Assembly: GCA_007116145.1 (NCBI GenBank)
Contig: SKJB01000032.1
Coordinates: 1 to 45,594, forward strand
Reading direction: 5' to 3'
DNA: 45,594 bases
From: Limnochordia bacterium
GTDB taxonomy: Bacteria > Bacillota > Limnochordia > Darwinibacteriales > DTU012
The position numbers and the translations under genes were made by a program. The stretch's first letter is position 1; the number at the start of each line of letters is the position of its first letter. Of the stretch, positions 8,949-14,741 are shown piece after piece. The notes beneath the pieces are model-generated. The model did not search any database. It had not been told where the DNA came from and worked only from the letters and a program-made list of their open reading frames with translations.

Positions 8949-8957
8949 TGGTATAAT
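8949..8957 (+). promoter_or_regulatory. Extended -10 promoter of the TerB/BrxD/helicase operon
   Basis: TGGTATAAT matches the extended -10 consensus TGnTATAAT. No good -35 hexamer lies 16-18 bp upstream, which fits an extended -10 promoter. It is about 40 bp before the first start codon of the cassette. Confidence 0.5.
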
Positions 8958-8999: not shown

Positions 9000-11243
9000 G
9001 TGCTAGAGATGCATAATGGAATTCGCACACTACATGGTGAATATGTAATATCGTTGTCAAGGCTCAATAGCCGTTTGATCATTGTAGCCTATCGTGGTAA
9101 AAATCGCATCCTATTGAGTTGGATGAAAACGCGGTTTGTGCAATTACGGCCCTTATTTGCCTGTACCACTTTATCCGATAATACCATATATGTGTCGTTA
9201 GCGAAATTAGAACAAGTTAAAGCTGTGCTAGATTCTTTAACGGATACCAACTTAATTGTTGATATCGAACCCGCAATTACAGAGCTAGTTCCAATTACCT
9301 TGCCCTCTAGTTTCATTATTAGCTATCGTTGGAGCCCTTCGAAGGGCGCGTTGACTCTCTGTCTTGACGGGGCTACGTATGCTGGTGGAGGTTGGTTTAT
9401 TAACGGAAACACCTATTTCCAGCTTCCCATCTTGCAGCTCTCGGATGATATTTACCTGGACAAGCCCGAGATTAGCGGTCAGGATCTGATTACTTTCTTA
9501 ACAAAAGTGCTGCCAGGGTGGCATAAGCGTGGGGTGCCGGTTCATTGTGAGCTTACATTTAGTAAGGACCCTCTATTGGGGGTTACGGTTAAGGGGACAT
9601 CTGAGTCTAAATTGACGCTAGATATCTGCTGGAATAAACGCCCCCATTCCTATCAAGCATTACAGTTTGTCGAAGAGTATGTAATCGATGGTCAAGTGGT
9701 GCAACCAGGGCCAGCTGTTCATCAGTTGCCTCCAGAATTTCTAGCTAGTGAAGGGGTTACAGTGTATGAAGGCAGCGCGATCCATTGGTTTTTAGACAAG
9801 GTTTATCTCTGGATCAAGCCGTGGGTAATCGGTGATATTAAGGTTCCTGCAAAAATTAGAGTTCCTACAAGCACGAAGGTCCCTACAATCATAATGGATC
9901 CAGAGGATGAAAGGATGCATGCAAAATCAGAGGAACTTGAATTTATTGCAAAGGCGAATGAGTATGCTGATGTGACGCAAGAGCGAGCTGGGTATCTGCC
10001 TTATTGGTCTATGTATCCCAACTATGCCTATATGAGTAAGTCGCAATTATCATGGTACTTTTATTGGCGAAATATGACAAGACAGCAGAACTATTTGCCG
10101 ACGGACATGGCCTATGTTTTACTCTACATCTTCGAGTTAATTCATCAAGTCGGAGTCAAGAGCCCTGAGGAAGGTTATGAGGCTTTGGTGTCTTTGTGGA
10201 GACATTATAGAGGACATTTCCGGCTACTAGACGAATATGTGATAGAATGGTTAGTCGATTATCGGATCGTATATAACTTGCCTAATCCCCTCGAGATTTA
10301 TGAGGTGTGTATGGAAGAAAAGATAATTCCTTATTACCCCGAGATAATTTTGGAGAGATACTATCCAGATCATTTAGATCAGGTGCCTCTAAGTTTACTA
10401 GCGAAATTTATCGATTATGATATCTTTAAAGGACGTTTTTATCAGCAGAATGAAGCATTAGTAGACAAAAGCGTTCCCATTGTTATTCACTATGTTAGTC
10501 GTTGCTTGCAACGAACTAGGGGGAAAGGATTGTTTGACCAAATACCCCTTGCGTCCCATATCGTTAGGCGCCCTTTGTTTGAAGGAGTATGGTGTTTTGC
10601 TGGTCCTAAGGAACCAGTCACCATTACCACCATTCGACCTTATTCGAACCATCAACCTTTTAGGCAGTATCTTACTGCAATTATTCGCTATATCGAAAAT
10701 AAGCTTCGCAGCAATCAGGGATACAGTAGTTTACTAAGAGTGCGCTACCTCGATGCTATGGTGCAAAAGCGCATTGATGAGTACTTTACTCTTTGTGCTG
10801 ACAAAATGGATCCGGATGTTCTTGAAAATCAGGAAGTAAAGATTGATTTTTCTGTAGTGACAAAACTCCGTGCAGACTCCGAAAAAATCGCCGAACTACT
10901 TTTAACAGAAAGCGAACGCATGGAGCAAGAGGAATGCGAGCAAAAGCGAATAAAACTCCCTGCTGTAAATCCTCTTGAGGGAACGCCAGAGGAATTTACA
11001 GACGCATTAAATGAGTACCATGTAACAGCGCTACTAGTTATTTATGAGGGCTGTGATGTAGAGCTACGCTTGCGGGAATTAGCAGCAACTCAATTAGAGA
11101 TGGTGGACATGCTTGTGGATACGATCAATGAAATTGCCCTAGATGTTCTTGGTGATATTATCATTGAATGTACAGATACGCTGGAAATAAATGGAGAGTA
11201 CTTGGATATACTAGTGTGGTTAAAAGGCAAAAGAGGTGAGTGA
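9000..11243 (+). CDS. TerB-N/TerB-C domain protein
   Basis: A 747-residue protein. Residues about 318-480 match a TerB-N domain: YLPYWSMYPNYAYMSKSQ, then WYFYWRN and AYVLLYIFELIH. Residues about 590-745 look like TerB-C, acidic and helical, with TPEEFTDALNEYHV. The first about 300 residues are beta-rich with a GGGWFINGNTYF segment I cannot assign. No catalytic motif is visible. GTG at 9000 is the start because AGGAGG lies 8 nt upstream; the ATG at 8998 hits a stop after one codon. Comparative-genomic work on Ter systems linked TerB-N/TerB-C proteins to helicases and ATPases in DNA-processing contexts. Here it heads a three-gene operon with exactly those partners and may be the sensor or scaffold (inference). 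Confidence 0.75.
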   Translation: MLEMHNGIRTLHGEYVISLSRLNSRLIIVAYRGKNRILLSWMKTRFVQLRPLFACTTLSDNTIYVSLAKLEQVKAVLDSLTDTNLIVDIEPAITELVPITLPSSFIISYRWSPSKGALTLCLDGATYAGGGWFINGNTYFQLPILQLSDDIYLDKPEISGQDLITFLTKVLPGWHKRGVPVHCELTFSKDPLLGVTVKGTSESKLTLDICWNKRPHSYQALQFVEEYVIDGQVVQPGPAVHQLPPEFLASEGVTVYEGSAIHWFLDKVYLWIKPWVIGDIKVPAKIRVPTSTKVPTIIMDPEDERMHAKSEELEFIAKANEYADVTQERAGYLPYWSMYPNYAYMSKSQLSWYFYWRNMTRQQNYLPTDMAYVLLYIFELIHQVGVKSPEEGYEALVSLWRHYRGHFRLLDEYVIEWLVDYRIVYNLPNPLEIYEVCMEEKIIPYYPEIILERYYPDHLDQVPLSLLAKFIDYDIFKGRFYQQNEALVDKSVPIVIHYVSRCLQRTRGKGLFDQIPLASHIVRRPLFEGVWCFAGPKEPVTITTIRPYSNHQPFRQYLTAIIRYIENKLRSNQGYSSLLRVRYLDAMVQKRIDEYFTLCADKMDPDVLENQEVKIDFSVVTKLRADSEKIAELLLTESERMEQEECEQKRIKLPAVNPLEGTPEEFTDALNEYHVTALLVIYEGCDVELRLRELAATQLEMVDMLVDTINEIALDVLGDIIIECTDTLEINGEYLDILVWLKGKRGE

Positions 11244-11247
11244 AACA

Positions 11248-12573
11248 ATGGTGGCAAAAATTCCGAAACGGGTATCGACAGCAATTTTAAATTCGTTAAG
11301 AGCTGGTGTGGTACCGCGCATTGGTTTACCCTATATTGCGGTTGGTCGGACAAAGGAGACGGAAACTTTAGTCAATGATCTAACGAACATAAGTGCTGGA
11401 GGGGCATGTTTTCGGTTTGTCGTTGGTCGGTATGGATCAGGGAAAAGCTTTATGTTGCAACTAATTCGTAATAATGCACTGGATAGAAATTTTGTGGTTC
11501 TAGATGGCGATCTCTCGCCCGAGCGTCGTCTCGCAGGTGGAAAAGGACAGGGTTTAGCAACATACCGCGAGTTGATGCAAAATATCGCGACGAAGACGCG
11601 GCCTGAGGGTGGAGCATTAGGAGCAATCCTCGAACGTTGGATTAGCGGGGTGCAAAGTCAGGTACTACAGGAAACGGGGTTACGACCGAGTGATGCAGGC
11701 TTTAATCGCAGGGTAGAAACCCAGATCCATACAGTCATTGACTCGATGGAGGGGTTGGTTCACGGGTTTGATTTTGCTAATGTGCTCACAACCTATTGGA
11801 ATGGATACCAAACGGATAATGATGTGCAAAAAAATGCAGCTCTGCGCTGGTTACGTGGTGAATACTCCACAAAGACAGAAGCCCGTCAATATTTAGAGGT
11901 GCGAGTGATAATCGATGATGATAGTTGGTATGATTACTTAAAACTTATAGCCCGTTTTATTGTTTCCATTGGTTACGAGGGTTTGGTTGTTCTCATTGAT
12001 GAAGCTGTGAATCTCTATAAAATAAATCATTCTGTTACTCGCCAAATGAACTATGAAAAGGTGCTGACACTCTTTAATGACACGATGCAGGGGCGAGCAG
12101 AAAACTTAGGCATTATAATGGGGGGGACACCTCAATTTCTTGAAGATGAGCGGCGAGGTCTCTATAGCTATGACGCTTTACGAACTCGTTTGGTTAAGTC
12201 AAGGTTTGCAGATGACCAGGTATTTGATGGCTCTGATCCAGTTATTCATCTTCAATCTCTTACGCAGGATGAAATATTTTTGCTGCTCCAAAAAATAGCC
12301 GAAATACATCGAATACATTATCAGTATGAAACACAAGTGAGCAGTGACGATTTAGTCGAGTTTATGCAAGTTATTGTCAATGTACTTGGGGCTAACCAAC
12401 TGCTTACTCCTCGAGATGTGGTCAAGGACTTTTTAACGCTCCTTTATATTTGGCAAGAATCCAATGGAGCGAGCTTTACTAGTTTGTTGCAGAGTTCTAA
12501 GTTCCAACCCGCTGCACCTCTCACTAGCTTGGATCAGGATGAGGATGATGAGTTTGCTGAGTTTACATTATGA
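11248..12573 (+). CDS. BrxD-like P-loop ATPase (DUF2791)
   Basis: A 441-residue ATPase. Walker A GRYGSGKS is at about residues 60-67 and Walker B VVLIDEA at about 247-253. The hallmark of the BrxD/DUF2791 family, GGTPQFLEDERRGLYSYDAL, is near 292-311 and is followed by RTRL with likely Arg fingers. An upstream GTG (11236) is in frame, but the ATG at 11248 has GAGGTGAG at good spacing and follows the TerB stop by 4 bp. BrxD is an ATPase of type 2 BREX phage defence whose mechanism is poorly known. Here there is no BrxC, PglX or PglZ, so the gene works in a different assembly, presumably coupled to the next gene's helicase. Confidence 0.85.
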   Translation: MVAKIPKRVSTAILNSLRAGVVPRIGLPYIAVGRTKETETLVNDLTNISAGGACFRFVVGRYGSGKSFMLQLIRNNALDRNFVVLDGDLSPERRLAGGKGQGLATYRELMQNIATKTRPEGGALGAILERWISGVQSQVLQETGLRPSDAGFNRRVETQIHTVIDSMEGLVHGFDFANVLTTYWNGYQTDNDVQKNAALRWLRGEYSTKTEARQYLEVRVIIDDDSWYDYLKLIARFIVSIGYEGLVVLIDEAVNLYKINHSVTRQMNYEKVLTLFNDTMQGRAENLGIIMGGTPQFLEDERRGLYSYDALRTRLVKSRFADDQVFDGSDPVIHLQSLTQDEIFLLLQKIAEIHRIHYQYETQVSSDDLVEFMQVIVNVLGANQLLTPRDVVKDFLTLLYIWQESNGASFTSLLQSSKFQPAAPLTSLDQDEDDEFAEFTL

Positions 12574-14741
12574 GTGTTCACTCGTTTGAGCGCCTATCGC
12601 CTTTTATTCAAGAATACATTTATAAATACCGTTGGGATGAATTGCGAGAGATTCAGATTGCCGCTTGTAACATTATTTTTGACACAAAGCATCATTTGCT
12701 ATTAGCAAGTGGTACTGCTTCTGGTAAAACTGAAGCGGCTTTTTTGCCTGTGTTAACCGTATTGCAACACAACCCCGCTAAAAGTATTGGCGTTTTATAT
12801 ATTGGCCCTCTTAAGGCTCTAATCAATGATCAGTTTCATCGGCTCTCCCATCTGTTACAAGAAGCTAGTATCCCGGTTTGGCATTGGCATGGTGATGTCT
12901 CGTATAGTCATAAGCAAAAGCTGATCCAGCAACCTGAAGGTGTGTTACAGACTACGCCTGAGTCTCTAGAGAGTTTATTAGTGAATCATCACCAGGATTT
13001 ACCCAGGATGTTTGGAGATTTACGCTACATAATTATTGATGAGATTCATGTATTTATGGGGACCGACCGGGGAAGTCAGGTTCTCTGTTTATTAGAACGC
13101 TTAGAACGGTGTTGTGGGACAGCACCGAGGCGTATTGGGTTATCTGCGACCCTAGGAGATTATACGATAGCCAAAGCTTGGCTGAGGGGGAATACGCAGC
13201 CCGTAGTTGAAGCACCACCAGTATCTTTAGGGGGGCAGCGAATCCGCTTGCGCTTAGAACACTTTGTCAACCCCGCAGATCATGAAGTAGAGTATACGGA
13301 CTATTTGTTTCGGCACAGTCAATTAGCACAAGGAAAGTGTTTAATCTTTAGTAATAATCGTGCAGAGACAGAGAGTGTAATTGCTAAACTGCGAAGAGTA
13401 GCCCAAGAACGCAAAACGGGAGATATCTACTATGTCCATCATGGTAGTGTCGCTGCTACCTTGCGTAAAGAGGCTGAACGGGCGATGGCTGATCCAGATA
13501 AAGCAGCTGTGATAGCTGCTACAGTTACCTTGGAATTAGGTATTGATATTGGTCGGTTAGAGCGTATTATTCAGTTAGAGTCGCCATTTTCGGTGGCTAG
13601 TTTTTTGCAGCGATTAGGGCGTTCAGGACGGCGACATAATGCATCAGAAATGCAGATAGTAACAACAGAGGCAACCGATGATAATCAATGGATTGCTGAC
13701 TCCTTTCCCTGGCAACTATTACAGGCTATCGCAATTATTCAACTCTATCTAGAGGAGCGATGGATTGAACCGCCATCGGAGAATTACTATCCTGTTAGTC
13801 TGCTTTACCACCAGACCATGAGTACTCTGCTTGCGAATAGTGGGTTAACCCCTGCTCAGTTAGGGCGACGGGTTCTTACTCTAGCTCCATTTCGTCAGAT
13901 AACGCAAGCCGATTACAGGCAGTTTTTACGCCATTTGCTAGAACTCGATCACATTGAGTTAATGGAAGATGGAAGTTTAGCCATTGGACTGACAGCGGAT
14001 CCAATTGTCCATACATATCGCTTTTATGCTGTCTTCCAGGAGCAGACAGAATACATTGTTCGGGAAGGGACGACCGAAGTGGGGAGTATTCTCACACTGC
14101 CGCTCCCAGGAGTGTGCTTTGTGCTAGCGGGACGGGCGTGGGAAGTTTTGGAAATCGACGATAGCCGCCGTATTGTCTTTGTAAAGTCCGTGGAATATGG
14201 AGGCAACTTAGTATGGTCCGGTGGAGCAAGCAGTGTCCATATCCGGATTATGCAGAAAGTCTGGGAGATTTTGTTGGCTAACGATGACTATCCCTATCTC
14301 CAAAAAAGAGCCCAAGAACGGTTGAAACAAGCCCGTGCTATCGCCCAGGATTTATCGTTAGCAACGGAGCGAATTGTTCCCATCAACGATAATCAATTCT
14401 GTTTGTTTCCGTGGTTTGGTACGAAAGAATTCCGAACACTAGAGCGGTTTTTCCGAATTTGTTGTCGCGAGCAGCTAGATATCAAATCGATGAGTGTTAA
14501 AAACCCCTATTATTTAGTGTTGCAATTTGGGTGTGATGGGCGGCACGCCATGAAAGAGGCCATGCACCTCTTACAAGGTCTCCGTTCAGGATCACAATTA
14601 CTAGCGAGGGAAGAGATCCCCCGCACTAGTAAATTTGATGCATTTGTACACCAGGATCTAGTGCGCAAGGCGTATGTACTTGATTACTTAGCTTTGGATA
14701 CAGTCAAAAGTGCAGTCAAAAGCTGGACGCACCCAAGCTAG
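12570..14741 (+). CDS. DEAD/DEAH-box helicase, Lhr/BrxHI-like
   Basis: A 723-residue superfamily 2 helicase. Visible motifs in order: Q-motif-like REIQ (about 27-30), motif I SGTASGKTEA (about 47-56), motif II DEIH (157-160), motif III SAT (about 191-193), and motif VI QRLGRSGRR (about 345-353). A long C-terminal region (360-723) follows, as in Lhr-type helicases and BREX BrxHI. The start ATG overlaps the ATPase stop (ATGA), so the two are translationally coupled. No nuclease domain is evident. Likely an ATP-driven translocase or unwinding enzyme acting on DNA together with the two preceding proteins. Confidence 0.88.
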   Translation: MSVHSFERLSPFIQEYIYKYRWDELREIQIAACNIIFDTKHHLLLASGTASGKTEAAFLPVLTVLQHNPAKSIGVLYIGPLKALINDQFHRLSHLLQEASIPVWHWHGDVSYSHKQKLIQQPEGVLQTTPESLESLLVNHHQDLPRMFGDLRYIIIDEIHVFMGTDRGSQVLCLLERLERCCGTAPRRIGLSATLGDYTIAKAWLRGNTQPVVEAPPVSLGGQRIRLRLEHFVNPADHEVEYTDYLFRHSQLAQGKCLIFSNNRAETESVIAKLRRVAQERKTGDIYYVHHGSVAATLRKEAERAMADPDKAAVIAATVTLELGIDIGRLERIIQLESPFSVASFLQRLGRSGRRHNASEMQIVTTEATDDNQWIADSFPWQLLQAIAIIQLYLEERWIEPPSENYYPVSLLYHQTMSTLLANSGLTPAQLGRRVLTLAPFRQITQADYRQFLRHLLELDHIELMEDGSLAIGLTADPIVHTYRFYAVFQEQTEYIVREGTTEVGSILTLPLPGVCFVLAGRAWEVLEIDDSRRIVFVKSVEYGGNLVWSGGASSVHIRIMQKVWEILLANDDYPYLQKRAQERLKQARAIAQDLSLATERIVPINDNQFCLFPWFGTKEFRTLERFFRICCREQLDIKSMSVKNPYYLVLQFGCDGRHAMKEAMHLLQGLRSGSQLLAREEIPRTSKFDAFVHQDLVRKAYVLDYLALDTVKSAVKSWTHPS

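Follow-up and report, generated by a model that had tools for sequence, protein, structure and literature searches.

The window analysed here, a stretch of 45,594 nucleotides from a Limnochordia bacterium (assembly GCA_007116145.1, contig SKJB01000032.1), carries at positions 9000–14741 three adjacent genes which we identify with high confidence as a complete Shango defence operon, sngA-sngB-sngC. This identification is based on the PADLOC Shango models, which outscore those of BrxD and BrxHI by wide margins. The second gene product reaches 623 bits with the SngB model (residues 7–445 of 445), the next family being BrxD with 176 bits, and the third 760.5 bits with the SngC model (residues 3–716 of 723), followed by BrxHI with 448 bits; the first gene product is recognized by the SngA model with 228 bits over residues 301–738. 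Pfam agrees in detecting TerB_N (E=8.5e-25) and TerB_C (7.9e-12) in the first protein, BrxC_BrxD across the whole of the second (1.2e-163) and DEAD (1.1e-27) together with Helicase_C in the third. An earlier note on this DNA had correctly described a TerB_N/TerB_C protein, a BrxD-like ATPase and an Lhr/BrxHI-like helicase, and in naming BrxD and BrxHI it pointed soundly to the correct related families. Its further claim of an undescribed minimal system has to be abandoned because the trio corresponds to Shango, described in 2022–2023 and modelled in PADLOC (PMC10250203); with the trio already named and its anti-phage activity published, the question raised by the note is closed.

The Shango system of Pseudomonas aeruginosa PA14 consists of a TerB-like protein, an ATPase and a DEAD/DEAH helicase and was cloned into PAO1 (Johnson et al. 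2023, PMC10250203), upon which many phages plate 10–100-fold lower and protection in liquid culture is strong; the same paper credits another report (Millman et al. 2022) with finding Shango in E. coli too. The window presents the three components in the same order as the PA14 and E. coli systems, gene order is identical at Shango loci on plasmids of E. coli and Paenibacillus, and adjacent genes in the order A-B-C are also found at loci L005, L010, L011, L020, L086, L087 and L127. SngB and SngC share 39% and 32% identity, respectively, with the E. coli plasmid copy. SngC falls into a clade of defence helicases together with BrxHI, DruE and DpdJ (Hachiman paper, PMC12278908). The window trio probably has an anti-phage role. 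Several points weigh against the interpretation as a Shango defence operon. SngA is divergent, a BLASTP comparison with the E. coli plasmid SngA giving only E=0.02, and its first 300 residues are missed by the SngA model. Phage protection is demonstrated for PA14 and E. coli Shango only, and the operon is not placed in a defence island; it differs from PA14 and E. coli Shango in lying outside a defence hotspot. Finally, the DNA-remodelling step of the mechanism outlined below is one that we infer, and an uncharacterised nuclease activity is compatible with the data.

The three long open reading frames are intact, tightly packed and located on the same (+) strand. SngA translation starts at a GTG codon with AGGAGG 5′ of it. 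The sngB reading frame opens at GTG 11236, from which its 445 residues are counted, but the alternative ATG 11248 is the likelier start because it agrees with where the homologues start. With this choice, sngA and sngB are separated by 4 bp and sngB and sngC overlap by 4 bp, as the earlier note had reported. Its extended -10 promoter fared less well: the letters TGGTATAAT are present upstream of sngA, whereas a scan with the sigma-70 consensus passed no promoter and found no -35 match upstream of this element. As TGGTATAAT is legible while the scan is negative, a promoter at this position is only suggestive. A terminator search downstream of sngC found none.

The signature motifs, Walker A/B and GGTP..RRGL..R in SngB and the SF2 motifs Q to VI in SngC, are all present, and their catalytic residues are conserved at or near 100% among 81 SngB and 24 SngC sequences. 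In SngB, no sequence departs from the Walker A lysine, the Walker B aspartate/glutamate or the RRGL arginines, and in SngC the motif I lysine, DExH, SAT and the QRxGRxGR arginines are likewise invariant. Both proteins are expected, from their sequences, to be active as motors. No recognisable nuclease was found among the three proteins.

Table 1. Coordinates of the Shango operon and associated features in the window.
Feature	Position	Strand	Remarks
sngA, TerB_N/TerB_C protein, 747 residues	9000..11243	+	PADLOC SngA; Pfam TerB_N and TerB_C
sngB, BrxC/BrxD-family P-loop ATPase	11248..12573	+	PADLOC SngB; Walker A/B intact
sngC, SF2 DEAD/DEAH helicase of the Lhr/BrxHI/SngC clade, 723 residues	12570..14741	+	PADLOC SngC; motifs intact
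SngA module N1, residues 1–285	9000..9854	+	outside the SngA model; AlphaFold2 pLDDT (predicted local distance difference test) mostly 85–95
SngA C-terminal region, residues 662–747	10983..11240	+	inside TerB_C; predicted winged-helix-like fold
Possible extended -10 element TGGTATAAT	8949..8957	+	read directly from the letters

The only unusual part of the window Shango is N1, an extra module of 285 residues in front of the TerB protein. The E. coli plasmid SngA, in comparison, begins with an apparent membrane helix, which the window protein lacks. N1, although confidently modelled by AlphaFold2, matches nothing in Pfam and NCBIfam even at E=10, and Foldseek provided no trusted PDB match for it (best E 0.09, prob 0.14); SngA as a whole found no match among the PDB sequences. 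Since the VIA-align comparison of the window SngA covered mostly residues 662–747, we do not call N1 a new fold. The module is common to the SngAs of a second Limnochordia genome (L003; 277 bits by phmmer) and of Desulfobacca (L020; 88 bits by phmmer) and was traced by profile to a plasmid-encoded SngA of Paenibacillus peoriae (L086; E about 1e-20) and, in part, to L018. In 15 genomes or records, a profile search with N1 and the adjoining module N2 matched nothing other than SngA, and N1 was not found in viral contigs. At the other end of the protein, the C-terminal 86 residues (662–747) resemble MarR/LysR DNA-binding domains with a VIA-align Z of about 6–7 over 74–78 residues (root-mean-square deviation about 3); this Z lies below the caution line of 8, and the modelled winged-helix-like C-terminus is thus suggestive.

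The Desulfobacca and P. peoriae SngAs share with that of the window N1 at the N-terminus and TerB_N/TerB_C at the C-terminus and differ by module N2, predicted as an inactive SNF2 lobe 1, between N1 and TerB_N. N2 is missing from the window SngA and present without N1 in L007, L011 and L017, and most Paenibacillus SngAs contain neither module. The N2 model of L011 (pLDDT about 70–89 in the core, low before residue 160) matches SF2 ATPases and most of all SNF2 lobe 1 with its RecA fold, as reflected by a Foldseek prob of 1.00 to 1z63 (E 0.003) and by VIA, in which about 149 residues align with BAF/ISWI/INO80 ATPases at a Z of about 13. In an alignment of five N2 sequences read by eye, the GKT position is occupied by GTP, GVP, GVP, VDA and SEP and the DExH position by INVD, INAD, VNAH, LEAD and LEPD. 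None of the five retains the Walker lysine or the DExx aspartate, and for this reason N2 is predicted to be a dead SNF2 ATPase lobe 1. N1 may stem from the same SNF2-type fusion, because it adjoins N2 in some SngAs. These N-terminal modules are an unreported detail in the literature searched, which excludes the original Shango paper (Millman et al. 2022).

The operon is flanked by genes for a nadA-type protein, an adenosine deaminase, a membrane transporter, an AsnC regulator, an aminotransferase and an amino-acid kinase. Ten flanking genes tested for defence function revealed none and have metabolic functions only; the ordinary metabolic neighbourhood noted before is thus borne out, and a defence island setting was rejected. 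Of a CARF-ADA model, the adenosine deaminase matches the deaminase portion only. Full-length SngB is encoded in 2 of 9 genomes of the family and 2 of 73 of the class, where a third match is a BrxC/D-like protein (29%). In three related genomes, G004 (C66), G006 (C45) and G007 (C104), orthologues of the deaminase and the transporter also flank one shared slot, which holds an opposite-strand sensor histidine kinase where the window has Shango. The Shango of the Limnochordia metagenome-assembled genome SKHL01000217 (L003/G001) is closest to that of the window, with SngB 73% identical, SngA equipped with N1 (42% over the whole protein) and nadA adjoining; it differs in that no adenosine deaminase lies between nadA and Shango and in that SngC runs off the contig. 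The transporter end begins another contig in this genome, and its Shango likely occupies the same site as that of the window.

In the SngB tree the window is joined with strong support to L003 only and the deeper order is open; the SngB relatives of cyanobacteria, Paenibacillus, Heimdallarchaeota and Desulfobacca show similar identities of 55–63%. SngB relatives are encoded in 692 plasmid records, mostly of Klebsiella and Salmonella, of which 542 are predicted to be conjugative. The operon is not set apart as foreign DNA by its base composition. A virus-borne origin was rejected, as a search of the phage collection gave no SngB match and viral contigs gave no confirmed one; N1 was missing from viral contigs as well. 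The patchy presence, the histidine kinase in the same slot of relatives and the carriage on plasmids together favour gain and loss as cargo, and Shango here looks to have been acquired or exchanged in this way, in a direction at this site that we infer. The finding extends the range of Shango to a little-studied Limnochordia-like lineage.

The kinship with BrxD and BrxHI raises the question of whether the operon is a reduced BREX (bacteriophage exclusion) type 2 remnant that retained these two proteins and lost PglX, PglZ and BrxC. The BrxD and BrxHI matches of genes 2 and 3 and the name of the Pfam family of the ATPase, BrxC_BrxD, speak for it. However, the Shango models are far ahead for both ATPase and helicase, the 176 bits of gene 2 miss the NCBIfam BrxD equivalog cut-off of 350, the TerB protein is not a BREX part, and the trio of TerB protein, ATPase and helicase recurs across phyla without a BREX core. 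Moreover, PglZ (PF08665) has no match in the genome (2.76 Mb, 96.6% complete), which encodes a single PF10923 protein and no second member of the BrxC/D family; PglX is not among the ten flanking genes tested, a genome-wide search for it not having been made. Given the model scores and the missing PglZ and BrxC, a BREX remnant was rejected as extremely improbable. By their sequences, SngB and SngC are relatives of BrxD and BrxHI, but because PglZ and a second BrxC/D protein are lacking in a genome of this completeness the operon is not BREX. The self-contained trio outside BREX proposed in the earlier note is thereby upheld, while its idea of a TerB protein replacing the BREX core is unsupported. 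We also consider it very unlikely that the trio is a housekeeping DNA-repair or stress module with only incidental defence, as might be suggested by its solitary position between the nadA/adenosine deaminase and the transporter/aminotransferase genes, by the near-constant pairing of TerB_C and SngB among the Nostocales loci found, and by the presence of SngC in 16 of 16 genomes checked there. The occurrence in only two class genomes, the different gene in the slot of relatives, the hundreds of plasmids carrying SngB relatives and the published anti-phage activity of Shango (PMC10250203) argue against it. The note had named constant association with BREX, or universal and vertically inherited presence, as findings that would contradict its proposal; neither applies in the class, with 2 of 73 genomes, whereas the Nostocales pair is widespread and looks vertical.

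Accepting the operon as Shango, its mode of action may be approached from the predicted properties of the components, as the published work searched gives no mechanism. SngA, with TerB_N/TerB_C and N1, might serve as a DNA-binding scaffold or sensor, SngB as an AAA+-type ATPase which loads or switches the complex, and SngC as a DNA translocase. The SngABC complex would recognise phage replication intermediates or phage DNA–protein complexes and remodel them in an ATP-driven manner, and phage replication would be blocked without DNA cleavage or a nuclease of its own. N1 might tune recognition or partner binding and represent the relic of an SNF2-type N-terminal fusion, which is preserved as a whole, N1 plus dead lobe N2, in some relatives. 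We hold this scenario with somewhat less than even confidence. Slightly more tentative is the view of SngA as a modular scaffold partly descended from a catalysis-dead SNF2-type ATPase, in which N1 and the dead lobe would provide DNA or nucleoprotein recognition as a swappable sensor on a fixed SngB–SngC motor. That Shango acts instead by abortive infection or against plasmids, and not by a direct block of phage DNA, appears rather unlikely and still deserves consideration; the silence of the published work on the mechanism leaves room for it, and the systems sharing the helicase clade of SngC vary in outcome. The modular SngA N-termini, including the dead SNF2 lobe of relatives, offer a handle on the Shango mechanism because their deletion or exchange would leave the motor proteins unaltered.

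In the Nostocales (L004, L019–L082, about 60 species), the gene of an SngB relative with about 55% identity directly follows that of a TerB_C coiled-coil protein of ~445 residues. This pairing is found at 61 of the 63 loci of the cyanobacterial set, 58 of them with a further reading frame of ~450 residues upstream, and the TerB_C protein of L023 appears to have a membrane segment at its N-terminus. The SngC gene often lies apart from the pair; it was found elsewhere in all 16 genomes checked. The pair gives the impression of vertical inheritance and may represent a housekeeping or derived system related to Shango. A Heimdallarchaeota locus (L015:4482–13836) encodes an SngA of 1160 residues with two TerB_N matches, followed by SngB and two tandem SngC-like helicases.
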